A stretch of 39,697 nucleotides of DNA from a virus, in IMG/VR virus record IMGVR_UViG_3300020474_000042, positions 1 to 39,697 of that record. One strand, written 5' to 3'. The position numbers and the translations under genes are program-made. The first letter of the stretch is position 1. Every line of letters begins with the position of its first letter. Under the pieces are notes generated by a model. The model was given only the letters and a program-made list of their open reading frames with translations, had not been told where the DNA came from and searched no databases. Below, in pieces: positions 1 to 39,244 of the stretch.

Positions 1-2641
1 TACCAAACCACAAATCTGCACTTGAATTGGTAGAGCCATTAGCATTGTGAATGAATATACCAGATGACGTAGAAGAATCACCATATGCTGTAATACCATT
101 TGATGTGGTTTCAAATTTCTTGGAGTCATTATGATAAAGAGAAACTGAACCACCATTAACAAACTTTGCCAGGGTTTCATTAACAGCATTATTCGTAATT
201 CTTAAATCATCAGCTGCAATATATGATGCAGTACCATCATGATAAAGTTGTAAGTCATCACCAGCACCAATCAATAGTTTTTGGTTGTCACCAACAAGAC
301 TTAAATGACCATTAGAAGTTAAACGAAGTAATTCTGTTCCATCTTTTCTGAACTTAAGATTGTTTGAACCATGATCTCCACCAATCTTATAATTTGCTGT
401 CCCAACAAAGAATTCAACATACGCACCATTACCAGCACTACCAGCAGAATTAATTCTCAATGCAGAAGTATAAGATGATGGTTGAGTAATTTCCATCATA
501 CGACTGGAATTAATCGAAGACTGATTGAGACCTAATCTACCATCACTATCGATACGAAGTCTTTCTGAACTTCCTGTCGCAAATCTGATGTCAGTTGCTC
601 TGATACCAAATGATGTTAAAGCACTCGCCGCAGTATTTGTTGCTTGGAATCCTGTTACATTACCAATTTCACCTATAGAACCAGTAAATCTAATAACCTT
701 ATCGGTGTCTTCATGAATAGCAACTCCGGTACTTTCTGTTTCAAGTTTCTTAACGTTGTTGTGGTAAAGTTCTACTGCACCATCATATTTAACAATAACA
801 CCTTCCTCTCCATCTTTAGGTTGTAATCTAATCCATCCATTTGCAGAATTTATTACATTTAAATTACCTACACTATTAGTAATATTCGAATCACCACTAC
901 TATGGTACAGTTGTAAGTCATCACCAGCACCGGCAGTGAACTTACTGTTATCAGGAACACTAACACCAGATCGAGCAGTTATAAGACCAACTGAATCTAC
1001 ATTAGTTACATCTTCATAAGTAAGTGTTCCACCAACAGATACATTACCTGTAACAGAAAAGTCACCAGTTACACTATTAGTAATGAAACCTGCACCATTT
1101 GTTAATTGGTTATTATTGGTGGGTATTGTTGGTTTATTTGTAAGATCGTCATAGTCAACACCAGTTAGGTTACTACCATCACCATAATAAGTTGCACCGG
1201 TTACAATACCTAATGTACTAATACCAGTTACAACTAAAGATGTACCAGTTATATTTGAGGGGTATTGACTTACATTAGGAGAAGCTTCAATCCATTGAGA
1301 AGAACTACTATCTGTATAGTAAATATATGTTTTTGCAGCTACATCAGAATACCACAAATCACCTGCGTCTGGTGATGAAGGTGGTGTTGAAGATATTGTT
1401 ACTCCGCCACTCACACCAGTAAGGTTGGACCCATCACCATAGTATTCTGTTGCACTAACAATACCACTATTACCATAAACAGTAACACCAGTACCAACAT
1501 TTAGATCACTAGTGATGTTTACACCACTAGTTGTAGTTTCAAGTTTCTTACTATTGTCATAGTAAAGTTCTACCGTACCCGGTGGTGTTACCACCAGTGC
1601 TGTCTTATTTTCAGCGACGTTAGTAAACTTAAAAGCGTTTGACCTAAACTTTAAGTTTCCTGTTCCTTCATCACTAATATATGAGTGCTCAGAATCGTGG
1701 TAAATCTTTAAGTCACCACCACTTGCATCACCAAGTCGAATCTCTGCATCATCTGGCAAAGTAATATGAGTAGTGATACCAACTCCACCAGTAATATTGA
1801 TACTACCAGTTCCTGTTATATTATTTCCATTAAGATCTAGATTGCCTCCTAGTTGAGGTGTTGTGTCATCAACAACTTGTGATATACTTCCACCAGCTGG
1901 TGATGTATCTATCCACTGTGAAGAGTTGGCATCAGTGTAGTAAATATATGTTCTTCCTGTGCTTGTGGAGTACCACAATTCACCTGCTTCTGGTGATGAT
2001 GGTGCTGATGATGATATTGTTACAGTGCCACCAACACCGGTAAGATTTGATCCATCACCATAATAAGTTGCACCAGTTACAATACCTAATGTACTGATAC
2101 CAGTTACAATTAGAGATGTTGCACTGACGTGTGTAGCAAAACCAGCAGATCCTGGTGGAGAAGAATCGATCCACTGAGAAGAACTTCCATCATTATAGTA
2201 AATATATGTTCTTCCATCACCAGAGTTGAACCACAATTCACCTACTTCTGGTGAAGAAGGAGCGGTTGTTGATATTCCTATTGTTGAACCAGCACCTGCT
2301 GCACTGATACCAGTAAGTTTTGATCCATCACCATAATAATAGTTTGCTGTTACAATACCAACATTTAAAAGTGCACTATTTTCCGAATGTGCAGCTCCAT
2401 CTGGAAACTCTGTTCCAATGCCAACATTACCCTGAGTAAAATATGCATTATAAGTTTCAGTTCCTGCTCCTACCCTAAAGGGGTTGACTACAAAAGCAGT
2501 ATCTCCAGCACCTGAATTTCTTGAAGAATATAAATATCCATCATTCGTATTTACTGCTAACTCACCAAGTGGAACCTGATCCGCGGTCGGGACTTTACCA
2601 GCAACCGAACTGCGCTTTAACTTAATTTTTGGATCTGACAT
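1..2641 (-). CDS. Repeat-rich tail fibre protein, C-terminus beyond the window
   Basis: An open frame runs from an ATG at 2641 to the window edge with no stop, giving at least 880 residues. The N-terminus (MSDPKIKLKRSSVAG, then PLGELAVNTNDGYLY) resembles the leader seen on many myovirus fibre and baseplate-attached proteins. The body is built of repeats such as GISTLGIVTG, YYGDGSNLTG and WIDSSPPGSAG, plus YIYYNDGSSSQW-type units, and the visible end reads ADLWFG. There are no enzyme motifs. The role is inferred to be a host-contact or whisker-type virion fibre. It shares a 43-base identical stretch with the fibre gene at 18493-21678. A late-promoter-like site lies 51 bases upstream. The start has only a weak ribosome site. 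Fibre identity is likely; the exact receptor or attachment point is unknown. Confidence 0.75.
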   Translation of the reverse strand, partial: MSDPKIKLKRSSVAGKVPTADQVPLGELAVNTNDGYLYSSRNSGAGDTAFVVNPFRVGAGTETYNAYFTQGNVGIGTEFPDGAAHSENSALLNVGIVTANYYYGDGSKLTGISAAGAGSTIGISTTAPSSPEVGELWFNSGDGRTYIYYNDGSSSQWIDSSPPGSAGFATHVSATSLIVTGISTLGIVTGATYYGDGSNLTGVGGTVTISSSAPSSPEAGELWYSTSTGRTYIYYTDANSSQWIDTSPAGGSISQVVDDTTPQLGGNLDLNGNNITGTGSINITGGVGITTHITLPDDAEIRLGDASGGDLKIYHDSEHSYISDEGTGNLKFRSNAFKFTNVAENKTALVVTPPGTVELYYDNSKKLETTTSGVNITSDLNVGTGVTVYGNSGIVSATEYYGDGSNLTGVSGGVTISSTPPSSPDAGDLWYSDVAAKTYIYYTDSSSSQWIEASPNVSQYPSNITGTSLVVTGISTLGIVTGATYYGDGSNLTGVDYDDLTNKPTIPTNNNQLTNGAGFITNSVTGDFSVTGNVSVGGTLTYEDVTNVDSVGLITARSGVSVPDNSKFTAGAGDDLQLYHSSGDSNITNSVGNLNVINSANGWIRLQPKDGEEGVIVKYDGAVELYHNNVKKLETESTGVAIHEDTDKVIRFTGSIGEIGNVTGFQATNTAASALTSFGIRATDIRFATGSSERLRIDSDGRLGLNQSSINSSRMMEITQPSSYTSALRINSAGSAGNGAYVEFFVGTANYKIGGDHGSNNLKFRKDGTELLRLTSNGHLSLVGDNQKLLIGAGDDLQLYHDGTASYIAADDLRITNNAVNETLAKFVNGGSVSLYHNDSKKFETTSNGITAYGDSSTSSGIFIHNANGSTNSSADLWFG
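2051..2093 (-). repeat. 43-base repeat shared by two fibre genes (copy 1)
   Basis: Identical over 43 bases to 20062-20104 in the other fibre gene, same orientation. A third copy with one mismatch lies at 1176-1217. It encodes the STLGIVTGATYYGDG unit. Confidence 0.85.
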
Positions 2642-16902: not shown

Positions 16903-18462
16903 TTAGAATTGCAAGATAATCTTTACGTCTTCTTTCTGAGATGATGAACGAGTGACCGATGGTCTGTTATCAACATAAATTATATTTCCAGTGTATTTCT
17001 CAATTTCTGGTTGAGAGATACCATTTACGAAATTCTGACCCAGATAGTAGGTACGACTATTTATCACTGTAGAAACACCCTGAAATGAGGTATCAACACC
17101 AAGATTATTACTACCACCAAAAATAGTAAAACTTCCACCTGGATTGATATTCTCAGTGAATCTGTTCACTCTGAATCCATAAACAGCACTGGTTGGATCA
17201 GGATTACCTTCAGAGTTGAATCCAGTATTTGTTCTATCTTGCCAATACTTCAGAACACCAGTAATTGGATCATATGATACAACTCTACCAACTGCAGTTG
17301 ATCCAAATCCAACAGTTTGTGTGACATATGAGTCATACACAAATGATGTTTCACTATAACCAGTACCAGTAAGCCTGAGTGCATAAACTGCACTGGCCTT
17401 ATCTGTGGTCAGTATCTCTTCAGTTCCTTGTGCATCTGGATCTTTAACAATTCCAACTCTTGAGAACTGGTTACCTGTAACAAAGTCAGGGTTCTCAGTA
17501 TCATTCTCAAACCTGGCATAACTCATAACATTGTATGCACCAAGTTCATTGTAAATGTCATAACCATGACCACCTTTTGGGGGAATGATGACATTGAACA
17601 ATGGAGTAGTAGTTCCAGTAGGAACACCACCAGCCACAAGATCTACAGTTCCAAATGTATATCCTCTACCACCTTTTGATACTACAATAGATTCAACCTT
17701 TGATTCATTATTAACAGTGATGGTTGCTTGACCACCTTCACCATCACCAAGAATAGGGACACCAGTATATGTTATATTTGCAGTTCCTACACCAACTCCA
17801 CGATTTTTGATAGTGATGACCTTCAGCTGACCTGAAACTCTGGAGTTTGCTCTAACAGAAGCAGTTTTGGTATTTGTTTCCCAATCAGTTGGAACGGGAA
17901 TATAATTCGTAGAATCAAACTTGATAGCGTCACTAGGAGCAATGCTATACAGATACTTCCAAACATATCCATCACCACTACTACCAGCTTCTCTTGGTTC
18001 TAAATCAGTGAATTGTGGTTCATCCAAAGAAGGACCACCCTGATAGTTATTCTCAGGAGTTGCATTATTGAACAAACAAATATACACCCTATAATCTGAA
18101 TTGACTACAAAGTAGTTTGCGGAATACAGATCAAAGGAACCTGATGGCTCAGAAGGATTGTCCCTACTGATATCATTTCTGAACATATCATAAGTGATAC
18201 CAGAAGTCCATACGGTCTTCTTAACAACTTGAGTCACATCACCAGGATTGATCCTTTTCAATGCAATCATCGTGTCATAGTCATCATCATATTGTGAAAA
18301 ACTATCTTTAGGACTAGGAGGATCCTGATCCCAAGTAGGAGAGTAATCTAATGCATTCGGGAGACCAATAAATGCATAGTGTGAACTTGATGCTGTCTGA
18401 ACACCAGCAACAAAATTCTTTGCATTTAAAATACGAAGTTGGTCAGTAATTATCGCTGCCAT
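16903..18462 (-). CDS. 8: Baseplate wedge protein gp8 (519 aa)
   Basis: gp8 is a core part of each baseplate wedge in T4. GDGYVWKYLYSIAP (residues 163-176) matches T4 GDGYVWEYLFEIPP, followed in both by a valine-proline strand (YIPVPTDW here). The C-terminus IIYVDNRPSVTRSSSQKEDV, then KIILQF, matches T4 MIYMENRPPI with a terminal INILFTF. At 519 residues it exceeds T4 gp8 (334); the extra central part includes a GxGY beta unit (SKGGRGYTFGTVDLVAGG) like those in gp14 and gp7. A perfect TATAAATA site stands 20 bases before the ATG. Confidence 0.94.
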   Translation of the reverse strand: MAAIITDQLRILNAKNFVAGVQTASSSHYAFIGLPNALDYSPTWDQDPPSPKDSFSQYDDDYDTMIALKRINPGDVTQVVKKTVWTSGITYDMFRNDISRDNPSEPSGSFDLYSANYFVVNSDYRVYICLFNNATPENNYQGGPSLDEPQFTDLEPREAGSSGDGYVWKYLYSIAPSDAIKFDSTNYIPVPTDWETNTKTASVRANSRVSGQLKVITIKNRGVGVGTANITYTGVPILGDGEGGQATITVNNESKVESIVVSKGGRGYTFGTVDLVAGGVPTGTTTPLFNVIIPPKGGHGYDIYNELGAYNVMSYARFENDTENPDFVTGNQFSRVGIVKDPDAQGTEEILTTDKASAVYALRLTGTGYSETSFVYDSYVTQTVGFGSTAVGRVVSYDPITGVLKYWQDRTNTGFNSEGNPDPTSAVYGFRVNRFTENINPGGSFTIFGGSNNLGVDTSFQGVSTVINSRTYYLGQNFVNGISQPEIEKYTGNIIYVDNRPSVTRSSSQKEDVKIILQF

Positions 18463-18492: not shown

Positions 18493-21400
18493 TTATCTGA
18501 GAGTTGGATAGATAAAAATAGTTCCACCCATTCCAGTATGTGATGCACATTGATAATATAGTGTATCTGGAGCGTTGAAAGGTACTGTAAACGACACACC
18601 TCCATTTGTTTGTCCATTACCAACAACACCATTATCATATGGGGTACCAATAGTTCCATTCGGAGTCTCCTGAATCTGGAATGGATGGATTCCCATCTCA
18701 TTAACAAACACATATAATCTACCTCTTGCAAGATAGATATCAGGATCATTTGTTGCTTCAGTGAATCCAACACCAGTGAAGGTATAATGATTAGATCCAA
18801 CAGCACCCAGAGTCCATTGACCAGAAGTCATGTTTGAACCATCACCAATGTATGATGTTGCGGTCAATGTACCATCGACTGCATTGGTAATAAATCCAGC
18901 ACCATTTGTTAATTGGTTAGTGTTAGTGAAGGATGTTGTAATGAATCCTGCATCATTTGTTAATTGGTTAGTGTTAGTAAATGATGTTGTGATGAAACCA
19001 GCACCATTGGTCAGTTGATTATTGTTTGTTGGTACTGTTGGTTGATTGGCTAGGTCGTTATAATCACCAGAGAATGTCCCAATACCAGATATTGTGACTC
19101 TGCCATTGGCGAGAGTGGATACTGATAAGTGATCTCCAAAATCTATTGTTCCTGCAGTTCCTACAACAGTTCCACCATCTTCAATAATGGTACCAGAACC
19201 AGAACCAATAACACCAGTTAGTCCAGAACCATCACCTAAGAAAGCTGTTGCAGTTATGATTCCCGTAGTATTGATGCTGTCAGCTGTTCCAACACCTGCC
19301 TGAACACCAGTTAGGTTACTACCATCACCTATGAATGAGTTGGCAGTAACATTACCAGTAGCAGTAATATCTTGACCAGTGTATGTGGTAGCATCAACAT
19401 TACCAGTAACAATAACACTTTGACCAGTGTATGTGGTAACACCACTCAAGTTACCAGTGGATGGAGTCCAAATTAGATCTCCAACATTCACTGTTTCGTG
19501 ATTACTTACACCAGTATCAGCGTCATTAATAAATGATACTCTTCTTCCTGTTGTAGATGTAGTATCTGTTACCGCTAAAACCGAATCACTACTATCAGAA
19601 TTTCCACTAATTTGTGATGCTGTAATTGAATTGGTGTATATATCTACAGCCTCAATGGAGGTGACACCAGTAACAATACCAAGAGTAGAGACACCAGCAA
19701 CAACCAAACTGTCTGTTCTGGTATTAGCTGTGGCAGCCAATCCAGTAACAGTGTAGATAGCAGTGGTTCCAGTACCACTAAATTGTGCTTCTATCTCCCC
19801 TTCATACCTGAAATCAACAGTAGTAAATCCAGAACCAACAACTACATCATCAAGTTTCAATCCAACTGATTTTGATGCAGTTACATTCGTAAGTCCAGAA
19901 CCATCACCACTAACGGTTGTTGCGTCAATATTGGTTGCGTAAATTTGATCAGATGAAAGTGATTGAACAGAAGTTACAATACCAAGAGTGGATACACCAA
20001 GAATCTCAAGATTTTGGAAAACTTGAACTGATCTAACTGGAACAACACCGGTAATATTTGTTCCATCACCATAATAAGTTGCACCAGTTACAATACCTAA
20101 TGTAGAAATACCAGTTGTAATTAATTCATTAGCCTCAATACAATCGACATCTAGCTTACCAATTTCAATATCAGGAATTCCTGTAAGTCCTTGAGCGTTT
20201 GTAGCTACTGTGGATATTCCAGATATTGTGGCATAAGTTGCAATTCCTGATGTTGTAGAGTAGGTTGCAATACCAGCTATTTCCGAATACCCAGCAAAGG
20301 TTGCATCAGTTGCAAGTCCAGCAGTTGTTGCGTAAGTTGCAATGCCAGCCAGAGGTGAATATGATGAGAAAGTGGAGTTTGTAGAAATACCTGCTGTCTC
20401 GGCATATGTGGATATAGTGGATAATCCAGATGTGGTCGAGAAACCAGATACAACCGAATACCCAGCAAAGGTTGCATCAGTTGCAAGTCCAGCAGTTGTT
20501 GCGTAAGTTGCAATACCAGAATTTGTTGCGTAAGTTGCAATACCAGAAACGTCTGAGTATTCTGCAAAATCTACATAATTATTTAAAATCTCAATGACGC
20601 CACCCATAACATTATGAGCAGTACACTGATAGTACAGGTGCTTCGGAGCATCAAAATGAACATCGAATATCAGATCACCATTTACTACTCCGTTATTGGT
20701 GATTCCAATTGTATATGCTGATCCAACAGAACCATTTGGTGTTTCTTGAATCTGGAAAGGATGTACTCCTAACTGATTAGTAAATCTATAAACCTGACCT
20801 CTTGTCAAATAAAGAATAGGATTGGTTTCTATACCAGTGAATCCATTTCCAGTAAATGTATAATTGCTTGTGCCACCTGCACCTATAACCCAAGAACCAG
20901 TGAAAGAAGAAATTCCAGCAGTTATTGAATGTGTAGATAAGGTAGAAATTCCTGATATTTCTGCAAATCCAGCAAAGGTTGCATCGGTTGCAAGTCCAGC
21001 AGTTGTTGCAAAGGTTGCAATACCAGACAAACCAGAGAATGTAGATACTCCACTAGATGATGCGTAAGTTGCAATACCAGATGTTTCTGAATAACCAGCA
21101 AAGGTTGCATCGGTTGCAAGTCCAGCAACTGCTGAATATTGAATATTGTTAATATTTGCACCATCACCATACAGGTTAGTGGCATAAACTTCTGTGGACT
21201 GGATTGATGGTACTCCAGTAACAATACCTAAAGTAGATATACCTGATACAACTAATGAGACACTTGAAACTCTTTCTGTTGTGGCCAATCCGGTGATCTG
21301 TGATCCATCACCAACCAAAGTGCCACCAATAACAGCACCACTACATTCAACCCTCGGAGTGTAGATAGTACCAATACCCATAGATTCGGTACTGGTAACT

Positions 21401-21678
21401 ACACCAAGAGTTGAGACACCAACAACTACCAGTGATTCGGAATTGATGTTTTCTGTATTAGCCAATCCAGTGATTGTTACTTCCCCAGTAGGGGATGAAA
21501 CACTAACGAAATCACCGCCAACAATACTGGTTACAATACCTGAGAATATGTTAGTTCCATCCCCAAGTGAGGAGTAGATCTCATCAAAATTAGTATTGAT
21601 TTTGCCACCTGCTTCTCGCAGAGTATCACCAGTTCCATCATTAGCAGTGGTTCCTGTGTTTATACCTAATTTTGCCAT
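18493..21678 (-). CDS. Repeat-rich tail fibre with two cupredoxin-like domains (1061 aa)
   Basis: The N-terminus MAKLGINTGTTANDGTGDTL, then GGKINTNFDEIY, is a leader shared by many marine phage fibres. The shaft consists of GIATYATTAGLATDATFAGY repeats, GVSTLGIVTG units and tandem NTNQLTNDAGFITTSFT units. Two about 100-residue beta domains interrupt and end it. One carries H306 in VHPFQI and C352-x2-H355-x2-M358 in YYQCTAHNVMGG. The second has H998 in IHPFQI and C1044-x2-H1047-x2-M1050 in YYQCASHTGMGG, and it forms the extreme C-terminus. Both have the cupredoxin lead-in 'lyltRGqvYrFtN'. These are complete type-1 copper ligand sets with amicyanin-like spacing. The gene lies between the gp7-like gene and gp8, suggesting attachment near the baseplate. 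Fibre role likely; copper binding is inference. Confidence 0.85.
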   Translation of the reverse strand: MAKLGINTGTTANDGTGDTLREAGGKINTNFDEIYSSLGDGTNIFSGIVTSIVGGDFVSVSSPTGEVTITGLANTENINSESLVVVGVSTLGVVTSTESMGIGTIYTPRVECSGAVIGGTLVGDGSQITGLATTERVSSVSLVVSGISTLGIVTGVPSIQSTEVYATNLYGDGANINNIQYSAVAGLATDATFAGYSETSGIATYASSSGVSTFSGLSGIATFATTAGLATDATFAGFAEISGISTLSTHSITAGISSFTGSWVIGAGGTSNYTFTGNGFTGIETNPILYLTRGQVYRFTNQLGVHPFQIQETPNGSVGSAYTIGITNNGVVNGDLIFDVHFDAPKHLYYQCTAHNVMGGVIEILNNYVDFAEYSDVSGIATYATNSGIATYATTAGLATDATFAGYSVVSGFSTTSGLSTISTYAETAGISTNSTFSSYSPLAGIATYATTAGLATDATFAGYSEIAGIATYSTTSGIATYATISGISTVATNAQGLTGIPDIEIGKLDVDCIEANELITTGISTLGIVTGATYYGDGTNITGVVPVRSVQVFQNLEILGVSTLGIVTSVQSLSSDQIYATNIDATTVSGDGSGLTNVTASKSVGLKLDDVVVGSGFTTVDFRYEGEIEAQFSGTGTTAIYTVTGLAATANTRTDSLVVAGVSTLGIVTGVTSIEAVDIYTNSITASQISGNSDSSDSVLAVTDTTSTTGRRVSFINDADTGVSNHETVNVGDLIWTPSTGNLSGVTTYTGQSVIVTGNVDATTYTGQDITATGNVTANSFIGDGSNLTGVQAGVGTADSINTTGIITATAFLGDGSGLTGVIGSGSGTIIEDGGTVVGTAGTIDFGDHLSVSTLANGRVTISGIGTFSGDYNDLANQPTVPTNNNQLTNGAGFITTSFTNTNQLTNDAGFITTSFTNTNQLTNGAGFITNAVDGTLTATSYIGDGSNMTSGQWTLGAVGSNHYTFTGVGFTEATNDPDIYLARGRLYVFVNEMGIHPFQIQETPNGTIGTPYDNGVVGNGQTNGGVSFTVPFNAPDTLYYQCASHTGMGGTIFIYPTLR
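18885..19030 (-). repeat. 51-base tandem coding repeat in the fibre gene
   Basis: About three imperfect copies of a 51-base unit encode the 17-residue unit NTNQLTNDAGFITTSFT. A related unit (NNNQLTNGAGFIT) also occurs in the left-end fibre near 1080-1140. Confidence 0.8.
20062..20104 (-). repeat. 43-base repeat shared by two fibre genes (copy 2)
   Basis: The partner of 2051-2093, about 18 kb away in the same orientation, inside the 1061-aa fibre gene. Confidence 0.85.
20283..20514 (-). repeat. 61-base perfect direct repeat pair within the fibre gene
   Basis: The stretches 20283-20343 and 20454-20514 are identical over 61 bases, 171 bases apart. They encode the IATYATTAGLATDATFAGYS unit. Diverged copies lie near 20967 and 21092. 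Identity at the DNA level implies recent copying or ongoing recombination. Confidence 0.85.
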
Positions 21679-21725: not shown

Positions 21726-24700
21726 CTACACTCTTGGAGTATCATCATAAGGGATAATATCATATCCTCTGAATTTCAAATCATTGTGTCTTCTCACATA
21801 AGTTGAAGTTGTCAGACCCGCATATCCGTTTCCACCATAGAAGTTGAAACTTTGTGCATCTGGTCTACCTTTGATATCAATCTTACCCCAACTATATCTA
21901 CCCAGGATTTGAGAAGAAGCGACAGTTCCAGAATAAACAACATATTCTTGAGTATCCATTGAATACGCTGTCGAATCAAGTGTCTCACTATTATTGTCAA
22001 AAGAAACACCACCAATGGGTTGTCCAACAATATTTGTGAACACTCTTCTTACATCAGTAACACCAACTCCAATGACATTCTTACTTACAGTAGTAACATG
22101 ATCGACCTGATAGATGTTGTCCAAAGAATCTGTGGAAACACCAATTCTGGTAGTATTGTCAATTTCCTTAGTAACAACTGTTCCACTAGAATGTGATCCA
22201 TTTGAATCAAACACAGTGAAGAAGTCACCAGTAGAAATGCCACTAATAGTTGTATCGTCAGAAACCAAATCTTGATCTCTCATCCAACTATCGAATGGAA
22301 TATGGAAGTCGAATATGAGTTGAGTTTTGTCTCCAACAGTATTAGTTCCAAATCCAACAATAATACCATAATCACCAGAGTAATCACTTACATCAACAAT
22401 CTCAATTGGATATCTTGGTGGTTCAACCAAAACAACTGGAGGATTATCTTGAGAATATCCACTACCAGGAGAAACAATATCAAAACCAACTATTCTGTTG
22501 TTTTGAGTTATGCTACCAACAACTGCCTTTTGTCCATTGAGTGGAGTTGAAATTGTGATAGTTGGGTTGGCCGTATAACCAAGGCCAGTGTTCACAATAT
22601 CCATATCAACAATTGATCCTGTTGGTCCAACAATTGCGGTGACAATTCCAGTTTCATTTACATCTTGTGAGATGATCTGAATCTTGTTCTGATACTTCTC
22701 ATCGGAAGTTTCGTTGAGGCTATCGAATAGTGGTTTCACACTATCAACATACACAACTGAGGTGGTGACACCAATTGATTGGATGAGATATGAGAATGGG
22801 AAGATATTTGGCTCATAGTGCATCCTATCCTTACCAACAAACACGCCATCAACAACAACATCACTGAGTTGTTTGGACCAAGAAACTGGTCTAGTGAGTG
22901 TTGTATCGGTAGTAACACCGGGTCTGATATATGGAGTTGTGGTTACAGAATCGACAGTGTTGATACCAGTAACTGGTCTATCATTCTGACTCAAACCAAT
23001 ACTCTGACCCCTGAGTGGGTTATTGTTGACATTGAGAATGTCACCCTCTTTGACAGTTTCTAAAATATCTTTGAAAACGACATCCTTATCTCTTGTTCCT
23101 TTATAGAAGAACACTTCACCCTTTTCTCCAGCTTTAGGTGCTTCGTTGAATCTGATAACAGACCCACCTTGCATACCGTATGACCTGGTTGGATCTTGTA
23201 ATACACCATTGATGAATATGAGAAGTGTATTCTCGACAACAATCTGAGATCCTTTTCTTGCAATAATTGCAACACCCTCACCACCAAGTTTGAGGTTGAA
23301 GGTTTTGGTCTTTCCATCAAATTCATCACTAATATCATCAAGAACTTGAATTTCACCCAAGAACCAAGAATTGAAAGTATCTCTTTGAGTTCTACCAACA
23401 TCAACGATAAACTCACTGAAATCAGAACCTGTTGTAGGAATACCAACAGTACCACCAATGGCAACAGTCAGTTGTTGTCTATCACCATATCCAGTTCCTT
23501 TGTCTGTCAACTCGAAGTTGATAACACTAGAACCATTACCAACAACAATATCAACTTTAGCTCCAGTTCCAGCGTTACCCAATGAAGAAGAGTTGTATAT
23601 TAAAGGAACATTGCTATAAGGAAGAGGTGCATCAATAACAACATTTGGAGGAGTAGAATACCCAGAACCACCATTAGTAATAGCAATACCAGTTACATTA
23701 CCATCAGTAATTGTTGCAGTACCAACATAGTGTGTATTTGGAATACCATTACTATAAGTTTGAACACCAACTCTAACAGTCTGGAGTCCTGAACGATAAC
23801 CAGAACCACTATTTCCAATGCTAACAGAAGTAACAGCTCCACCAGAAACAATAGCAGTACCACCAGCAGACACAAGAGGTTGATAACCAAAACCAGGTCG
23901 AGAACCAACTTCCATCAGAATACCACCTCTTGGGTATGACTGAGTATTGTTTTGTCCGTTATAAGGATCAGCTAAGAATCTAATATTTGTTTCATTAAGA
24001 GATTCTGATAGTGAATAAGATGGGAACTCATCTTTTCCATTTCTAGAAACTCCGTCAGGATGTTGGAATATACCATTAACTAATACAACTGCATTATCAG
24101 TAGATATACCGGTAACACTGTCACCTTCATATTTCAAAACAAAGTCACTTCTAATACCAGTGAAGTTATTAGAGATGTCATCATATACGTGATTGAGTGC
24201 GTAGTTCTCAGTACTAATACCCAAACCTTGGAAAGATGTTCTATTGAACACTCTTCCCTGGAATGATGAGTGAGTTGTAATACCAGTCCAATCGAATTCA
24301 TCAGGATCAGTTGTTGTACTAAGAGGTATAGATCCTTTTGGAGATTGAATAAAGTTAATTGAGTTTTCAACAATATTATACTGACCGGTAACTTTAACTA
24401 CTGAACTGTTGATATTGTGTGTTGCAAGTCTCGATCCCATCATCCCTCTAACAACTTTCATGTAGTAGTTGCCATCATTGGGTTCGAACCATGTAGCAAT
24501 TACCAACATATACTCATCATCGATTCTGACAATATCATCAGAGAAGAATGAAGTGATACCGGCAACTCTAATTTCTGTTTGAGTTGCAACAGTAACCGTG
24601 TTGACTGTAGAGATATCCGTATCCGCTAGTGGTGATTGAATCATATTATCAATCAGGATCATAGTTCTCTCTTCAGTTTTCTGAGATTTGATTTGGTGGA

Positions 24701-27700
24701 AAGTACCAATACCAGCAGATGTAATCTGGAAGGTTTTTGGTTGATTCAGAAGTGCGTCAGCCGCAGATTCTGCAAATGCAACCTTTGCGTCATTGTACTT
24801 AACAATATAACAATCTCTAGGAAGTTTGTCAGTTGTAACACCAGCAACTGATGTTGCCGCAATTCCAATTCTATTGACAGAAGTTCCAAGTCTACCTTCG
24901 TTTCCGTTATAGAGAATACGATCACCAGTTTCGAACTTATGATAAGGAAGAGTGACAGTATTGGTACCAACACCAACAATATCGTCAGAACTTCCATCGA
25001 AGTTTCTAATGAAGATGTCATCTCCATCCGTCTTCATAAGGAATTTGGACTGCTGTTCGAGTTGAGTTGCCTTATACACCTCATTGGTGTTAATAAGTTC
25101 ATGGTAGTTGGAATCCAAAGTATCTGAATAATCATTACCCAAGAATACTTGAATCTCCATACCATATACCCTAACATCTACATCAATATTAGGTTCTGGT
25201 GTAAATGTTAATATAGTATTACTGGTATCTGTATCAATACCAAATGTTCCAATCCCATTTTGTGTACCAGTGATGATACTGGCAAATTCTGTGATATATT
25301 CTCGGGTATTTGTATTCATAACCGAGATTTCAGTAAATTCGTGATTACCATTTGTGGTATCACTAGTTGTCACATAATAGGTTGCGGATTCATATGGATA
25401 TCCATAAGCTGCAATTGAATGTTGTGTTGGTGTTGCAGAAGCAGGAATATTAACATAGTTTGAAAGTAATCTACTAGTTTTCATATTAGTAGATCCAATT
25501 CCAACTTCAGAAGCACTGGTCAAAAGTGAAGTAGATGTAGTTGTGACTGCAATTCCAGGATTGGGTTCAAAAGTAATTTCAACATTACTACCGACAATGT
25601 TTGCATCAAAGGTTCCAATATCAGAACCAAGATAATACTCATTACCAGTACCAGAAAGTGTTGTCAGGTTTCCGTATTCAACAATACTCACATCTGTTCC
25701 ATCATGAATAGTATTCAGTTCAACACCATAAGTAATCTCGTTATCTTGCTCATCTGCACCAATCACCAACACTCTAGATTTTGCTGATCTGTAAGTTGTA
25801 CCATAAGATACAATTGTATCCGATGAACCAGCCCCAATGACTGCATTTTCTGTCTTGAACTCGTTGATAGGTGTAATTGCAATATTATCATTACCAATCA
25901 ATTGAGAGTTGGTGAACATATTGTCCACAACTAGAGACACTTCATAGTTGTTGAATTGTGCATTGGTTGGGAAGAATCTAAATGTCCACCCAAGTTCATT
26001 CTTAACCCACTCAAAATATCCCATTTGGACATTACTGAGCAAATTGGAATATGTATTAGTAAGTGCGTATGAGTTATTGTGAATAAGTGATGTAATGGTA
26101 AATTGTCTTTCCTCGATAAAGGTACTATCTTTCACATAAGCGTACATTCTGTTGAATCTAGCACTTTCATCAAATTGACCAAGATCGATGAAAATATCAT
26201 CTCTGGTATTACTATTGAATGACTTACTGATGTCATCAATGATATAAACTCTATTACTGATAGATTCAAAGTGATCAGTTAGAATTCTATTTTCAAAGTA
26301 GATTTCTCCAGAAAGGTGTGACCCATTCAAGAAAGAGGTTCTTTCAGTAACATAATCAAAATCGAAGAATGTATGAATACTAGATTCACTGATAATTTCA
26401 ACCTTGATGTCAATTTCAGAAGGAGATGTGAGTGGAGTTCTGTCAATATCTGGAGTACTGATAATTTGAAGATCAGAGAATTTCTGAACACCCGCTGGGT
26501 GTACAATAGAACTCACAGCATCATCCCACTGATCAAATGGAATTTCTGAAGCGATTGAATATGAGAAGTTCTGATAATACTCATTATTAGGAAGTTTCTG
26601 GAGGCTATTATTCATGAAACCAGTACTTCTCTCCCAACCACCAACAACGGTAGCACCTGGAGTTGTTGTGATTTCGGAATCATAGTTCTTAACATCAGAA
26701 ACGAAACAAATCGCCCCTGTTGTCTGACCCACTAACTTGTCACCAACCTTGAATCCAAGCCTAGATGAAATTTTAGCAACTTCAATGATAGGATTCCAAC
26801 TCAACACCTTAGCTTTACTTCCACCACCAATGATTGTTTCACCAACTAAAAGGTTACCCTTAGAAATTTGTGGTTTGAAGATCGGCATTGTGGATCTTTG
26901 GATAATCTTACCAACAGAACCGCCAATATCATAATCTCCAGCAACATCAGTATCACTGACATAATCACTCATGTCATAGGTTACAGATGCATTGAAACCA
27001 CCAACATTAGGATCAATAGCAGTAATCTTAAAGTATGCGTAAGTGTGATCTGAAGAGTTGAACCCAAATCCATCAGAACTCAGTGTTGTATTTTCAATAA
27101 AGATCTCATCATTAACCTTGAATGGGAAATCTGAAAGATTCTTAATCGGCTTCCTTAGGAAAGCTTGTGCTTTCTTGGTCGAAGAGTTATATGTGATCGA
27201 ATTGATACCAACACCATTGGAATTGTTGACTGCAACAATTCTTGGCTCAACAGGATACAATCCACTAGTATTTTCTTTGATGTCCACAAAAGGATCACCA
27301 AGTTTATACTTCAGATCAACACCAGGAACAACCTTATTGGTGAATCCGTCAATAACGATAAGATCTGGTGAAATTAAGTAGTTCCTACCTTGAGATGCGA
27401 TGCCAATATAATCAAATGTAGCAAGAGTATCTACTGTGATAACCTCAGGAACATTAGAAACAATTCTCATTGTTTGATCCGTTGGATAATCAAATCCAAT
27501 CTTATTAGCTTTATACTTTGTTTTTAAAATATTACCAATATTGTTACTCTTGGATAGAATAATAGCATCTCTTCCATTTGCACTTCTCACACTAGTGATT
27601 CCGGGCAAACTGAGATAATCGTATCCAGAATTGTTGATATCTACTCCAACAATAGGTCCATTAGCTGTCAGTGACTTTGTTTGATATGTAATTGTAGCGA

Positions 27701-30700
27701 TATTTTGATCCCAATATGATTGGTGAGGAATTTGAGTCAAATTGAAATCAAATGACGTAGATGCAACACCAACAATACTATAAAAACCATTATATTCACT
27801 TTGGATGACACCAATTTGATTATGTGATAAAGCTTCTTCATCAACATAATACTCTCTATAGACATTATCGATCTTATCAAGATTCTGCAACTCAAAGTTA
27901 TACCACAGAGTTTGTGGAATATGATCACTAACATATAATGTCAGTTTTGCATCAGAATCAATACCAGGAAGACCACTGGATGATACTTCAAACTCTCTAG
28001 TTTCTGCAGAGGAAATATATGATTCCAGATATTGATAATCTGAGAATATATTCATCTCAAAAGCACTATATCTAGTGTCATTTCTCATAAAAGAAAGAGA
28101 TGGGTCTGATAAGTCAAACTCCAAGATCTGGTTTCTTCTAATATTGACCAGAGGATTGACTTTAGAGAAAGATCCACTTCCAACTGAGGTCAAATCGACC
28201 ATATTTGGAGATTGTGAGTTAATATCGAACTTGTGCTCTACAAGTTGAATTTTATCCTTATTATAAGGGATAACATAATACATCGAATTGTCAATCAACC
28301 CACCCACAGGACTTTGGGCAAGATATACAACCTTGTCACCCTTGAGGAAATCGTGATTTTCAATTGTGATAGTATTTCTTGTTAAATCTAGTTTAGATGA
28401 ATTAAAACTTGACTGACCAAAGAGAATTCTTCTGTTTGGTACATTGTAAGTGACAGAAATTACTTCTTTAGTTAATGGCTTCAGATTAAAGGTGATATCA
28501 TCACCAATCTTCATTCCATGAGTACTTGCAGTAGATACAGTTGCTAAATTCTTATTGATGTTACCTTTAATGACAGAGGAGAAGTTGGAAAGGAAACTCT
28601 GATAGTCACCATCACCAGAATTGGTGAAGTACATGAGCCCCTTTCCGTCAGCCGAAACATATTCACCAGTATTACCAATACCCATTCTTTGGGTAGAGAT
28701 TCCAATAGTATTTGAAGTTAGTGGAACTGCATAAAACTTATCAAAAGTACTGAGTGGTAGATAAGGTGTTCCTTCTACACCATTCCACATCTGAATGGTT
28801 GTATTTGAATGAGAATTGTAGTATAATTCATCATTAATAATCAGATTATGATTTGGGATGAAGATTGATTGAGGAGTAAGGAATCTAGATGTAGCTCCTA
28901 CACCAGAATCAGAAAGGAATGCAGTATAACCAACACCAACTCCAAGAATTGTACCAACACCAACAGATTCTTCTGGGATGAAGTAATACTCTTCATTAGT
29001 TCTGAGTTTCTTTGTGGTAGTCAATCCAACAATATTGACTCTAAACTTACGAGGATCTTCTCTAAGTACTGTATTGTTTGTATGTGCAGAACCAACAGTA
29101 GAATCCTGTTCTCTTGCAACACGGATCCTGGAAGATCTTCTATCAAGGTTAAGAACCTTAACTCTCTCATCCCCAATAGTGAGAATATCGTTAGGTCTAA
29201 TAAATGGATACTCTAAAGCTCCAGCAACATAGAAGTATGTTGTGAGACCAGTGACCCCAGAATTATTGACACCGAGAGTTAGTACCGTACTATCGGTTCT
29301 GACTCCAACATTATACTGACCATCAAATCCCTTGATATAATCCGAAATGCCATCAATTCTGACACTTTCACCTTGCAACAAGTTTGTTGGAATTGAAGAG
29401 AAACCAATATAAGTGTTGGGTGAATTGTCGGCAACAAATTCTATATTGTCAATGATGAAAGAAGTAGATCTAACATCTATTACTGATTTGCCATCAATTA
29501 TGGAAACTCTTGCTTTAGCGTTTCTTCCACTAGTTCTTTCGTTATTGAATATAAGTTGATCACGAACCTTGTAGTAGTTTCCACCTGTTACAATACCAAC
29601 ACCAGAGATACTTCCTTTTGAAGCTCCAGTAACCTGAAGGCTTTGATCTTGAATACCACTAGAATTTACAATATACTCATATCCAGATCTATCATCATTT
29701 AAGTGATATACATCAGTATTTCTGAACCAACCATTTGATTCAAGATCATACTCTTGCTGATTTGAAGAAGATCTTAAGTTAAATGGATTTGGATTAAACT
29801 TGAAACTGTCACCAATCACATATGGGAATCTTGGTGACTTAAAGTTCTTGAATACACCCTTAGAACTTATCTCTGAAGTGAAAGTAGCGAAGTATGCATA
29901 AGTTCCATTAGGATAGTCTGGTGTTATACAGAACCTACCATTATGCTTATCTAGATCACCTTTATTGGTGAATACATAATCTTCAATGAAGAATGAACCA
30001 GGATACAATGATCTGGAAGGTCTATTCTTAGAACTCTCTTCAATACTGATAAGATTGTATCCACTCTCCATCTGCTTGACTTTTCCATTCTTACCATTGG
30101 CAAAACCATATGGTCCATAGATTGGATTACCATCATATGCCCACCCAATAATAGGTGAGTGCTTATTACTCTCTACTTCTACACCTCTTCTCTTGGTGAG
30201 ATCCTTTTTACCATAGTTTTGTGTTCCATCACCTTCCAAAGAATTTACACTTTCGCGTAACTCTCTTGGTGCATAGAGGTGACAAATCTGAAGTTCTTGG
30301 GCATCAATGGATTGAGAAATGAAGGAATCAGAATCATCAATATTATTGAGTCTTCTGCGATATTCGTTAATGTTCCAGACATTAAGAATAACATCTACAT
30401 TAGAATTTCTACCAGAACTTACGACTTCGATTTCTGTGGTATCATTGGAATACCCAAAACCAGATTGTTCAATGACAACATCAACAATTGTGCCATCACG
30501 AATAATTGGAGACAGTCTTGCAAACTGACCACCACCACGAAGAATAAGATCGGGAGTTGAGTAATACTCATGACCACCACTTATGATCAAAACATCAACA
30601 ATCTTTCCATCCAGAATAAGTGGTTTCAGTTTAGCACCTTCTCCTGACTTAAATGTAACTACAGGTGTTCTGTTGAAGTTGATAATTTCGTCAGATCCAT

Positions 30701-33700
30701 AATTCTCACCACCTTCAGTAATATCTACAGAGTCAATATTACCTCTAAAGATTGGTTGTACTTTACAACTAAAATCTTGACCAGAAAGAGTGGAAACACC
30801 AACCACACCATTAACTGATACTACAATTGGTTGATAGTTAAAGTATCCATTACCTCTTGATTGAATATCAACATAAATGTTTCTCTCATAGTAATAATCA
30901 GTAGCAACACTACCAGTTCCATAAGCAGAAAGTTTAAAGTGGTTGTCGTCTACCTTATGTACATAATAATTGGTATCTTCATCCAGACCAGCAATGTCCA
31001 CTCCACCAGGAATTCTGTAGTGATTAACTATCTCACCAGATTTGTAACCATGATTGACTATATGGATCGTATCAGTACCAATATTGATACCACCCTCGAA
31101 GAATACCTTTCTCTTCTTATTCTGGTAACCACTTCCTGGATTAGTAACAACAACACTGGTTACAATCTTCTTCCTCTCTACCGACTTAATGTCATGAATA
31201 CCCCTACCAACTTCAGTCAGTGAAATTACATTAACATTATCGTTTGCATCATCAAGTGTATTGTGAAGAGTGACCCTATAAGGATCAACAACATTCACAT
31301 GATAAAACGCACCAGTTGTCAGACCAACAATACCCTCTTGGCTATTGGTAGCATATACAACTCTCTCATTGTCTCTAAACTTATGGTAAGTAGAGAAACC
31401 AATAGTATTTGCAGCGAGGTTAATTCCACCAGTTGGTCCAATAGTGGTAGTACTTACACCTGCATTGAAGGAGATAGAATATACAAGATCAGTAGTATTG
31501 ACCTCTGCAGATGCACCCTGTCCAGAACCACCGGTAATGGAAACAAAAGGTCTCTCTACATAATCGAAACCAGTGTCAACAATTCTAATATCTTTCAGTG
31601 AACCAATTATAGCAGCATTTCCAGTTGCACCACTTCCAATAGGAAGATTATCTTCACCAGTATCAAGATCTCGAATATGAAGGTATGGAGGAGAAATAAC
31701 ATCAAACTCAGATCCACCATCTGCTACCGAAATACCTTTAACTTGACCATAATATATCTTATCACCTGATTTGTAGTTGAGAATTTCTACACCATCAAGA
31801 AAAATACCATTATAATTTCCTTGTTCTGTAGGATAGTCACCACTGGTTGTGTCTGGAGCAGCAATTTCCCTTACAATCTTCTGTCCAAGAATATTTTTGT
31901 TCCAATACTTATATTCAGAAATGGTAATATTCTCTACTACTCCTTGTAATAGGAGACAATCACCAAAGAATATATCAGACTTACCTCTGGCAAGTTGAAT
32001 TGTCTGTTGATCGACTCTCTTAACATAGAGAACCATATCACCAAGTCCATCGAACCCATTATACTCTTGAGTTACAATTTGAACACCATCAGGGGTGGTT
32101 GTTATAACATCTTTAGCGCCTCTTTGGTAATATACTGTATCACCAGTGTAAAAACCATGATCTACGTTATCAGTTAGCTTAATATTGTATCCATCAGTAG
32201 CAGCTCCAGAAAAAGTAAACTTTTTGTCGTTTGGATTGATACTTTTATCAAGAAGACTCGGAATTGAGTTCGAAGCTACTAAAGTATCACCATTAAACTT
32301 AGAATAAGTGTTTTGTACGTTTGTTATAAACTCTTTAAGTTTCGGATATTTACGAGTATTGGTTTTTAGTACCTGAGCTTCGACTTTATAAGTGATTCCA
32401 AGAGAAAAATTAGCAATTTTCGACTCAGCTGTCACAACAAATGACTTATCACTGGAAATTCTAGTAATTTTAGCATTTACAACCAAACCTGCATTATTAT
32501 AAACTAAGAGATTGACTCCAGCATAGTAATAATGACTATCAAAAGTCCTAATTTCATAAATTTTCTCATTATCATCAATAACATCAATACCTTCAACATC
32601 TAAAGTACTTTTGATGTTAGTAAACCACCCTCTACTTCTAATATCAGTGGGTTCAATACCCAATGACTTGATATAAATCTCATCATTCTTCTGAATAAGA
32701 GTAGATTTGTCGTTTTCAGTGAATTCATCCAAAGAACAACCAATTCTAACCCTTACAATGTTATCAGTACCCATACCAACGTAAGAGTATGAGTAATCAT
32801 CTTCTAAAACTTCAATATTTTCAGAAATATTACCAACAATACCCTCAACACGAAGGAATTGGTTTACAGATTTATCAAGATAGTTCAATCTGATGGAATT
32901 TCCATCCGTATCAGTCGTGATAAGGTAACCAGTTTGTGCAAATCCGACTGTAGAGTCCACATCAAGGATGGTAGAACCCACACTAACCTGGTTTAGGAGC
33001 CTTGTTTTAGGATTAATCTTGAAATCCGCAAACTTAGTTCCACTAACATCAATATCACGGTCATATCCAAGGTCAATACCTATCTGATAGAACTGACCTT
33101 TGTCATAATTGATTGGTTCAACCTTTGTAATGGTGGCTTTAGCACCAGTAGAGACCTGAAATAAGGTCTGATTGTCCAAATCAAGAGGATTTCCCTCAAG
33201 ACGCTCAACAACCATGTCTTCAGTGACCCTATAATCAGCATCAGAAGGTCTAAAGAGGAACTCAGAAGGTCTAATTACGTCAGATTCCTTGCCATATAAG
33301 GCATTGAAGAGCATCTTAAAGGAAGAATCTGTTCCTTTTGCCTGATAAAATGACTTTAGACCATAAATTAGGTTCCTTCTATCAAGATTTTCATCTAATG
33401 GTCTATTATCAAACCCAGGAGCAAACTGCTTTTTCAGTTTTTTGAAGAATTCTTGAAGAAAAAGTACATTTAGGTTGATAATTTGTACATCAGCCTTATG
33501 TTCTTCCGATTCTGTGGACTGAAAAACGAGTTGTTCTGGGTTATCAAGTGAAATATACGAGCTAATTCCACTAAAACCTCTTACACAACCCTCAAAAGTG
33601 GTGTTAGTTTTGGTTTTATAGTAGATAATTTCATTATCGATCTGAATTAGACCATCATTATCAGGAAATCCGTCAGTAAAGTTACCTTTATATGAAGTTT

Positions 33701-33941
33701 CAATCGTCGTATCAACAAAATCAATATCATATCTAAGCACACTGCTATTGGAGAGATTGAAAATCTCGTCCAATTTCACATATTTGTCAATATTTTGAAC
33801 GATATCGAGTGTTCCGCTCTCAAATTCTTGTGAAACATAATATTGTTTTAGAAATTCTGGTAGCAAAGGGAATTCTTCCCTCACATACCGCGGAAGTTGA
33901 GATTCTACGATATCCTGAAACTTTACTCTATCTACTGACAT
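21726..33941 (-). CDS. 7: Giant gp7-like baseplate wedge protein (4071 aa)
   Basis: This 12.2-kb gene fills almost a third of the window. The N-terminal 250 residues (FQDIVESQLPRYVREEFPLL; later GLKSFYQAKGTDSSFKMLFN and ALYGKESDVIRPSEF, near residues 193-230) match the C-terminal part of T4 gp7 (ESRSYDFYSTKGIEASYKFL). The position between gp6 and gp8 matches as well. T4 gp7 has 1032 residues, so this protein is about four times longer. The rest is mainly beta units: GxGY repeats (NGGSGYSTPPNVVI, NTGLGYTANPTITI, SPGSGYSQDNPPVVL), RG..G..H modules, and a YHYH-type domain at about residues 1262-1376 (GWAYDGNPIYGPYG, then DLDKHNGRFCITPDYPNGTY and FPYVIG). Domain assignment at the N-terminus is strong; the purpose of the extension is unknown. 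Confidence 0.85.
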   Translation of the reverse strand: MSVDRVKFQDIVESQLPRYVREEFPLLPEFLKQYYVSQEFESGTLDIVQNIDKYVKLDEIFNLSNSSVLRYDIDFVDTTIETSYKGNFTDGFPDNDGLIQIDNEIIYYKTKTNTTFEGCVRGFSGISSYISLDNPEQLVFQSTESEEHKADVQIINLNVLFLQEFFKKLKKQFAPGFDNRPLDENLDRRNLIYGLKSFYQAKGTDSSFKMLFNALYGKESDVIRPSEFLFRPSDADYRVTEDMVVERLEGNPLDLDNQTLFQVSTGAKATITKVEPINYDKGQFYQIGIDLGYDRDIDVSGTKFADFKINPKTRLLNQVSVGSTILDVDSTVGFAQTGYLITTDTDGNSIRLNYLDKSVNQFLRVEGIVGNISENIEVLEDDYSYSYVGMGTDNIVRVRIGCSLDEFTENDKSTLIQKNDEIYIKSLGIEPTDIRSRGWFTNIKSTLDVEGIDVIDDNEKIYEIRTFDSHYYYAGVNLLVYNNAGLVVNAKITRISSDKSFVVTAESKIANFSLGITYKVEAQVLKTNTRKYPKLKEFITNVQNTYSKFNGDTLVASNSIPSLLDKSINPNDKKFTFSGAATDGYNIKLTDNVDHGFYTGDTVYYQRGAKDVITTTPDGVQIVTQEYNGFDGLGDMVLYVKRVDQQTIQLARGKSDIFFGDCLLLQGVVENITISEYKYWNKNILGQKIVREIAAPDTTSGDYPTEQGNYNGIFLDGVEILNYKSGDKIYYGQVKGISVADGGSEFDVISPPYLHIRDLDTGEDNLPIGSGATGNAAIIGSLKDIRIVDTGFDYVERPFVSITGGSGQGASAEVNTTDLVYSISFNAGVSTTTIGPTGGINLAANTIGFSTYHKFRDNERVVYATNSQEGIVGLTTGAFYHVNVVDPYRVTLHNTLDDANDNVNVISLTEVGRGIHDIKSVERKKIVTSVVVTNPGSGYQNKKRKVFFEGGINIGTDTIHIVNHGYKSGEIVNHYRIPGGVDIAGLDEDTNYYVHKVDDNHFKLSAYGTGSVATDYYYERNIYVDIQSRGNGYFNYQPIVVSVNGVVGVSTLSGQDFSCKVQPIFRGNIDSVDITEGGENYGSDEIINFNRTPVVTFKSGEGAKLKPLILDGKIVDVLIISGGHEYYSTPDLILRGGGQFARLSPIIRDGTIVDVVIEQSGFGYSNDTTEIEVVSSGRNSNVDVILNVWNINEYRRRLNNIDDSDSFISQSIDAQELQICHLYAPRELRESVNSLEGDGTQNYGKKDLTKRRGVEVESNKHSPIIGWAYDGNPIYGPYGFANGKNGKVKQMESGYNLISIEESSKNRPSRSLYPGSFFIEDYVFTNKGDLDKHNGRFCITPDYPNGTYAYFATFTSEISSKGVFKNFKSPRFPYVIGDSFKFNPNPFNLRSSSNQQEYDLESNGWFRNTDVYHLNDDRSGYEYIVNSSGIQDQSLQVTGASKGSISGVGIVTGGNYYKVRDQLIFNNERTSGRNAKARVSIIDGKSVIDVRSTSFIIDNIEFVADNSPNTYIGFSSIPTNLLQGESVRIDGISDYIKGFDGQYNVGVRTDSTVLTLGVNNSGVTGLTTYFYVAGALEYPFIRPNDILTIGDERVKVLNLDRRSSRIRVAREQDSTVGSAHTNNTVLREDPRKFRVNIVGLTTTKKLRTNEEYYFIPEESVGVGTILGVGVGYTAFLSDSGVGATSRFLTPQSIFIPNHNLIINDELYYNSHSNTTIQMWNGVEGTPYLPLSTFDKFYAVPLTSNTIGISTQRMGIGNTGEYVSADGKGLMYFTNSGDGDYQSFLSNFSSVIKGNINKNLATVSTASTHGMKIGDDITFNLKPLTKEVISVTYNVPNRRILFGQSSFNSSKLDLTRNTITIENHDFLKGDKVVYLAQSPVGGLIDNSMYYVIPYNKDKIQLVEHKFDINSQSPNMVDLTSVGSGSFSKVNPLVNIRRNQILEFDLSDPSLSFMRNDTRYSAFEMNIFSDYQYLESYISSAETREFEVSSSGLPGIDSDAKLTLYVSDHIPQTLWYNFELQNLDKIDNVYREYYVDEEALSHNQIGVIQSEYNGFYSIVGVASTSFDFNLTQIPHQSYWDQNIATITYQTKSLTANGPIVGVDINNSGYDYLSLPGITSVRSANGRDAIILSKSNNIGNILKTKYKANKIGFDYPTDQTMRIVSNVPEVITVDTLATFDYIGIASQGRNYLISPDLIVIDGFTNKVVPGVDLKYKLGDPFVDIKENTSGLYPVEPRIVAVNNSNGVGINSITYNSSTKKAQAFLRKPIKNLSDFPFKVNDEIFIENTTLSSDGFGFNSSDHTYAYFKITAIDPNVGGFNASVTYDMSDYVSDTDVAGDYDIGGSVGKIIQRSTMPIFKPQISKGNLLVGETIIGGGSKAKVLSWNPIIEVAKISSRLGFKVGDKLVGQTTGAICFVSDVKNYDSEITTTPGATVVGGWERSTGFMNNSLQKLPNNEYYQNFSYSIASEIPFDQWDDAVSSIVHPAGVQKFSDLQIISTPDIDRTPLTSPSEIDIKVEIISESSIHTFFDFDYVTERTSFLNGSHLSGEIYFENRILTDHFESISNRVYIIDDISKSFNSNTRDDIFIDLGQFDESARFNRMYAYVKDSTFIEERQFTITSLIHNNSYALTNTYSNLLSNVQMGYFEWVKNELGWTFRFFPTNAQFNNYEVSLVVDNMFTNSQLIGNDNIAITPINEFKTENAVIGAGSSDTIVSYGTTYRSAKSRVLVIGADEQDNEITYGVELNTIHDGTDVSIVEYGNLTTLSGTGNEYYLGSDIGTFDANIVGSNVEITFEPNPGIAVTTTSTSLLTSASEVGIGSTNMKTSRLLSNYVNIPASATPTQHSIAAYGYPYESATYYVTTSDTTNGNHEFTEISVMNTNTREYITEFASIITGTQNGIGTFGIDTDTSNTILTFTPEPNIDVDVRVYGMEIQVFLGNDYSDTLDSNYHELINTNEVYKATQLEQQSKFLMKTDGDDIFIRNFDGSSDDIVGVGTNTVTLPYHKFETGDRILYNGNEGRLGTSVNRIGIAATSVAGVTTDKLPRDCYIVKYNDAKVAFAESAADALLNQPKTFQITSAGIGTFHQIKSQKTEERTMILIDNMIQSPLADTDISTVNTVTVATQTEIRVAGITSFFSDDIVRIDDEYMLVIATWFEPNDGNYYMKVVRGMMGSRLATHNINSSVVKVTGQYNIVENSINFIQSPKGSIPLSTTTDPDEFDWTGITTHSSFQGRVFNRTSFQGLGISTENYALNHVYDDISNNFTGIRSDFVLKYEGDSVTGISTDNAVVLVNGIFQHPDGVSRNGKDEFPSYSLSESLNETNIRFLADPYNGQNNTQSYPRGGILMEVGSRPGFGYQPLVSAGGTAIVSGGAVTSVSIGNSGSGYRSGLQTVRVGVQTYSNGIPNTHYVGTATITDGNVTGIAITNGGSGYSTPPNVVIDAPLPYSNVPLIYNSSSLGNAGTGAKVDIVVGNGSSVINFELTDKGTGYGDRQQLTVAIGGTVGIPTTGSDFSEFIVDVGRTQRDTFNSWFLGEIQVLDDISDEFDGKTKTFNLKLGGEGVAIIARKGSQIVVENTLLIFINGVLQDPTRSYGMQGGSVIRFNEAPKAGEKGEVFFYKGTRDKDVVFKDILETVKEGDILNVNNNPLRGQSIGLSQNDRPVTGINTVDSVTTTPYIRPGVTTDTTLTRPVSWSKQLSDVVVDGVFVGKDRMHYEPNIFPFSYLIQSIGVTTSVVYVDSVKPLFDSLNETSDEKYQNKIQIISQDVNETGIVTAIVGPTGSIVDMDIVNTGLGYTANPTITISTPLNGQKAVVGSITQNNRIVGFDIVSPGSGYSQDNPPVVLVEPPRYPIEIVDVSDYSGDYGIIVGFGTNTVGDKTQLIFDFHIPFDSWMRDQDLVSDDTTISGISTGDFFTVFDSNGSHSSGTVVTKEIDNTTRIGVSTDSLDNIYQVDHVTTVSKNVIGVGVTDVRRVFTNIVGQPIGGVSFDNNSETLDSTAYSMDTQEYVVYSGTVASSQILGRYSWGKIDIKGRPDAQSFNFYGGNGYAGLTTSTYVRRHNDLKFRGYDIIPYDDTPRV

Positions 33942-39014: not shown

Positions 39015-39244
39015 CGGGGGTTCTCTCTGATACACTTGGAGACTTTCTTATTATAACCTATGGGGGGCCTTGTGCCTAGTGGGAATTTTTCTGAGGGGCT
39101 TCGGCATAGTTGGTAAAAAAAAATTGGGGAAGTTTTTTTAAACCGAAAGAAGACTTTTATAGCTTAGATAGAAGGTACTTTTTATATTCGGGGGTAGGCT
39201 TCTTATACCTTCCTTATGGCTACGCGATCATAACATAATAACGA

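Follow-up and report, generated by a model that had tools for sequence, protein, structure and literature searches.

Cupredoxin-like domains with predicted type 1 copper sites in a baseplate-wedge/tail-fibre connector of a T4-like cyanophage

The viral DNA analysed here (39,697 nucleotides, hereafter the window) encodes a baseplate-wedge/tail-fibre connector carrying two domains which, judged from structural models, almost certainly adopt the cupredoxin fold and which each present the His, Cys, His and Met residues of a putative type 1 copper site (Table 1). The models together with the pattern of residue conservation indicate that the domain probably binds copper. Our favoured explanation as a whole, in which metal bound at a type 1-like copper site locks an exposed tip of structural or adhesive function, is a reasonably likely one, copper occupancy and a structural or adhesive role being the most likely interpretation of the site.

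Two cupredoxin-like domains in a connector protein

All eight ligand residues first proposed from the sequence-only reading were confirmed in the translated open reading frame, where a His is followed 46 residues on by C-x2-H-x2-M in each of two domains, and the second of these does form the C-terminus of the carrier, as had been claimed. The domains share 54% identity over about 104 residues, follow, like most of their relatives, the canonical ligand order with two His, a single Cys and Met or Gln as the axial residue, and are the only two of their kind found by a profile search of the window; the C-x2-H motif is absent from every other window protein checked. The carrier has just two instances of the pattern H-x45-C-x2-H-x2-M, at positions 306 and 998, and shuffling its sequence 200,000 times never produced one, which rules out a chance motif, while C-x2-H-x2-M alone appeared in 46 of 200,000. 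The whole carrier contains only four Cys and ten His, and the predicted ligands account for two of the former and four of the latter.

Modelling with AlphaFold2, from alignments of 18 sequences for domain 1 and 46 for domain 2, gave for both the cupredoxin fold that had been anticipated, and structural comparison with Foldseek agrees. Each model has eight strands, with the first His immediately ahead of a strand, the Cys at the end of another and the His-Met loop preceding the last. Nearly all of the top 50 Foldseek matches of each domain in the PDB are cupredoxins, multicopper oxidases or cupredoxin-built enzymes, with copper nitrite reductase, rusticyanin, CueO, plastocyanin and amicyanin in the lead (best E 5e-5), at moderate TM-scores to the query of about 0.4-0.57. 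A profile built from 21 relatives matched 29 PDB sequences at E <= 1, every one a cupredoxin or a copper nitrite reductase, but found no cupredoxin there once its four ligand columns had been masked. The link to cupredoxins drawn from sequence alone thus rests on the ligand motif, and because of this dependence the predicted fold is the main support for homology. The Pfam comparison came out less favourably, domain 2 matching PF00127 (Copper-bind) at E 0.034 with 15 bits, below the gathering threshold of 21.2; weak matches to the same family were obtained for 9 of the 21 relatives (best E 0.0017).

Table 1. Position in the window of the connector, its domains and predicted copper ligands, and the flanking genes.
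Feature	Position	Strand	Evidence
gp7-like baseplate wedge initiator, 4071 aa, upstream neighbour	21726..33941	-	synteny with 'baseplate wedge initiator' of RB11-B and P-TIM68
gp9/gp10-like baseplate-wedge/tail-fibre connector, carrying both domains	18493..21678	-	ORF, 1061 codons open, 1061 aa
N-terminal baseplate-anchor module, T4 gp10-like, aa 3-46	21541..21672	-	phmmer against PDB, E 1e-6
Cupredoxin-like domain 1, aa 262-370	20569..20895	-	profile iE 3.4e-37; AlphaFold2 pLDDT 90.4; best Foldseek matches cupredoxins
H306, predicted copper ligand, domain 1 (HPFQI)	20761..20763	-	translated ORF and conservation
C352, predicted copper ligand, domain 1	20623..20625	-	translated ORF and conservation
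H355, predicted copper ligand, domain 1	20614..20616	-	translated ORF and conservation
M358, predicted axial ligand, domain 1	20605..20607	-	translated ORF and conservation
Cupredoxin-like domain 2, aa 955-1061, C-terminus	18496..18816	-	profile iE 3e-40; AlphaFold2 pLDDT 94.9, pTM 0.88; best Foldseek matches cupredoxins
H998, predicted copper ligand, domain 2 (HPFQI)	18685..18687	-	translated ORF and conservation
C1044, predicted copper ligand, domain 2	18547..18549	-	translated ORF and conservation
H1047, predicted copper ligand, domain 2	18538..18540	-	translated ORF and conservation
M1050, predicted axial ligand, domain 2	18529..18531	-	translated ORF and conservation
gp8-like baseplate wedge subunit, downstream neighbour	16903..18462	-	PF09215 E 6.7e-10; phrog_438 E 1.7e-155

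The carrier had been labelled a tail fibre in the sequence-only reading, a name for which that of a gp9/gp10-like connector is better substituted. It matches phrog_677, 'baseplate wedge tail fiber protein connector', with an E of 9.8e-62, and its relatives match PF07880 (T4_gp9_10_N); its assignment as a connector between baseplate wedge and tail fibre follows from the gp9/gp10-like N-terminus, which matches T4 gp10, and from the position of its gene among wedge genes, between those of the gp7-like and gp8-like proteins. An identical order of gp7-like protein, connector, gp8-like protein and a large protein in the DUF4815 position is found in the Synechococcus phage RB11-B and the Prochlorococcus phage P-TIM68. 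Gp6-like, gp8-like, neck, gp15-like and DUF4815 proteins are encoded around the carrier, and judged by its genes the window comes from a T4-like cyanophage. The repeats GIATYA, GDGSxLTG and TNTNQLTN, found between the N-terminus and the domains, look like those of a fibre shaft, and the carrier is best described as a lengthened connector with fibre character rather than a plain T4 fibre.

Several other features of the window were recorded. A YHYH domain spans aa 1256-1356 of the 4071-aa gp7-like protein (PF14240, E 8.1e-25), and YHYH and cupredoxin-like domains are also paired in a 1162-aa protein of P-RSM4. Other receptor-binding candidates are a protein that matches the major tropism determinant N-terminal domain (PF18454; 2973-4376, minus strand) and one with repeats in common with the connector (2-2641, minus strand). 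A D12 class N6-adenine DNA methyltransferase (PF02086, E 4.4e-25) is encoded at 38106-39035, likewise on the minus strand.

Conservation of the ligand set and nature of the predicted site

Relatives of the domain were gathered with a profile masked at the four ligand columns in order to avoid circularity, and 55 of the 63 sharing less than 80% identity align as HCHM. When further loci were included and clustered below 70% identity, 52 of 69 clusters hold the full ligand set with either Met or Gln as axial residue (47 HCHM, 3 HCHQ and 2 with a loop one residue longer, C-x2-H-x3-M), a share inflated by the collection of some loci with patterns that cover part of the ligand loop. The remaining 17 clusters are without both the Cys and the second His, the Met being kept in one of them and the first His in about seven, and in none of the 69 does the Cys or the second His occur without the other; half-complete sites of this kind would not have been removed by the pattern-based collection. 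On a quick tree of the relatives the ligand state switches at least six times. The four positions, whose conservation had been left to a survey of relatives, are therefore not freely variable but are kept or lost as a set across the 69 clusters, and the ligand set appears to be under joint selection. The proteins harbouring HCHQ relatives (L053, L054, L056, L057 and L051) also carry HCHM copies, and the Gln-axial relatives recall stellacyanin, in which a Gln axial residue is likewise present; variation in loop length, too, has parallels among known type 1 sites. The existence of ligand-less relatives implies that the fold is usable in a virion by itself.

It is unlikely, in our estimation, that the cupredoxin fold is used here as a mere β-sandwich block whose ligands are metal-free relics, as might be proposed from the 17 of 69 clusters that dropped their ligands yet remain virion proteins and from a Pfam match below cut-off. 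Relics would be expected to decay one by one, but the Cys and second His are never found apart, a Met or Gln is kept with them while Met survives in just one ligand-less cluster, and the ligands are conserved about as well as the core glycines and prolines despite the masked search. Such all-or-none retention fits a metal site and not relics. That the site serves only as a structural clamp around some other metal, such as zinc or iron, is in turn very unlikely: type 1 copper has as its signature a cupredoxin fold bearing His/Cys/His/Met with C-x2-H-x2-M, and the axial Met or Gln of the relatives also favours copper, being typical for that metal and unusual for zinc or iron. An argument for another metal can be taken from the iron in HxH sites that is known for T4 gp37 and has been proposed for other marine phages, including Alteromonas phage R22Y (PMC11705849).

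According to our preferred reading, then, the domains would be modules of cupredoxin fold in which two His, a Cys and a Met form a mononuclear, type 1-like copper site. The N-terminus of the connector would dock on the baseplate wedge and the C-terminal domain would cap the free end. The connector would fold in the host cytoplasm either metal-free or with Cu(I), copper being taken up there or after lysis, and the bound copper would lock the ligand loop of the exposed β-sandwich; a loop so locked would, we propose, stabilise or shape the surface that contacts the fibre or the host. Copper in the ocean is scarce and strongly complexed, which makes the copper occupancy of the site uncertain.

Distribution among marine cyanophages and possible roles

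Although present in the window as first noted, the domain is not special to it but family-wide in marine cyanophages. A single tblastn search with domain 2 returned 322 phage records, nearly all from Synechococcus or Prochlorococcus phages, and nearly all carriers of the domain infect marine picocyanobacteria. The gp9 proteins of the cyanomyoviruses sampled are usually closed by the domain, 1-7 residues from the C-terminus, so that on the evidence of these sequences it ends the connector in most marine T4-like cyanophages sampled. Further virion carriers include a 1162-aa T4-GC 399 protein beside gp9, fibres of P-SSM2, gp7 of P-HM2, the Prochlorococcus podovirus P-GSP1 and a pelagiphage fibre, and isolates with the domain include syn9, P-SSM4 and S-SM1. 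Database records label the proteins that bear the domain as hypothetical, as gp9 or as minor tail protein. A Foldseek search of predicted viral structures gave 58 matches at E <= 0.001, mostly from cyanophages where named; a few pithovirus-/marseillevirus-like β-sandwich proteins also match the domain model in that search, with E below 1e-5.

A pattern scan of 84,980 genomes yielded two relatives only, one on a tail-like contig and one in a surface-type protein. The former (L074:3695-7459, Proteobacteria UBA4457) has two adjacent tail-like genes, one HCHM and the other DSDK; the latter (L075:3599-4252, an Actinomycetota MAG) is a cellular relative in which collagen-like repeats are joined to one HCHM domain and which adjoins ABC transporter genes. 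Recent capture from bacteria was rejected, there being no donor identified and only these two relatives. A free electron carrier or auxiliary metabolic gene of the phage petE type is ruled out by the embedding of the domain in wedge and fibre proteins.

The restriction of nearly all carriers to phages of marine picocyanobacteria, and the Cu(I)/Cu(II) cycling normal for type 1 sites, could point to a switch, linked to redox state or light, by which adsorption or the triggering of the baseplate would be tuned on photosynthetic hosts. However, no partner redox protein was seen and the domain occurs in a pelagiphage as well. A link by way of S-PM2, which shows light-dependent adsorption, was dropped, no copy of the domain being found within the 98 kb of that phage examined (31-129 kb). 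We therefore doubt that the site is such a switch, even with the light requirement for adsorption described in some cyanophages (PMC5082946, PMC2984593). Highly improbable, too, is the use of virion copper as bait for copper-uptake or copper-binding proteins of the host surface, or as a shield of the phage against copper. The capping of the connector's free end by the domain would suit a bait, as would the iron Trojan-horse precedent, itself published as a hypothesis (PMC11705849), but no host receptor is known and a connector of the gp9 type may lie hidden beneath the long fibres instead of being exposed.

If copper is bound as we favour, blue-copper chemistry, otherwise known from electron-transfer proteins and oxidases, would be a standard tail part of some of the most abundant viruses of the sunlit ocean. 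The T4 connector is a trimer present in six places, and with the same arrangement here two domains per chain would let the connector alone contribute as many as 36 copper ions to each virion. A bolder extension, which we rate as rather unlikely, would have most marine T4-like cyanophage virions bear type 1 copper centres by the tens where baseplate and fibre join or at the tip, with redox state or copper loading gating attachment to the photosynthetic host; virions would then act as machines that respond to redox state and would also hold a store of strongly bound copper in seawater. The copper-binding proposal, if true, bears on phage attachment, host copper biology and marine copper speciation and parallels the iron-in-tails hypothesis.

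Comparison with known systems

In the open-access papers searched, no description of a cupredoxin or blue copper domain in phage tails or cyanophages was found, and domain databases may already list the fold. The phage domain combines a known fold and a probable known metal site with an unexpected place, and is conserved across a large phage group.

Amicyanin, plastocyanin, pseudoazurin and rusticyanin resemble the phage domain in predicted fold, in the His...C-x2-H-x2-M set and in the order of the strands around the site, but these type 1 cupredoxins are secreted electron carriers whereas the phage domains are repeated modules within a virion protein and score below the Pfam cut-off. Of the amicyanin-type order and spacing originally ascribed to the domain, the C-x2-H-x2-M loop stands, its length being that of the ligand loop in amicyanin, while the His-to-Cys distance of 46 does not, lying nearer to the 47 of plastocyanin than to the 39 of amicyanin. 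The residue after the first ligand His is Asn in amicyanin and plastocyanin but Pro (HPF) in the phage domain, a motif that agrees with the HPFHLH of the multicopper oxidase type 1 domain; the C-terminal type 1 domain of these oxidases (CueO, laccase) is a Foldseek match of the phage domains. In contrast to CueO and laccase, the phage domain is without the trinuclear-site His, presenting a Gln instead (HPFQIQ), has a short C-x2-H-x2-M loop and stands as a single domain. This mix of features hints at a distinct subtype of type 1 site, whose spectroscopy could differ from that of the textbook proteins.

With phrog_677 (T4-GC 398, cyanophage gp9) the carrier has in common the relation of the whole protein, the gene order and the domain as the usual C-terminus, but members of that family mostly have one domain and about 400 aa, under an annotation silent on copper, whereas the window protein has two domains and 1061 aa. 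The HxH sites of T4 gp37 and those proposed for R22Y (PMC11705849) also place metal in a phage tail fibre; there it is octahedral iron within the fibre trimer, whereas the carrier would hold its predicted copper in a folded mononuclear domain.
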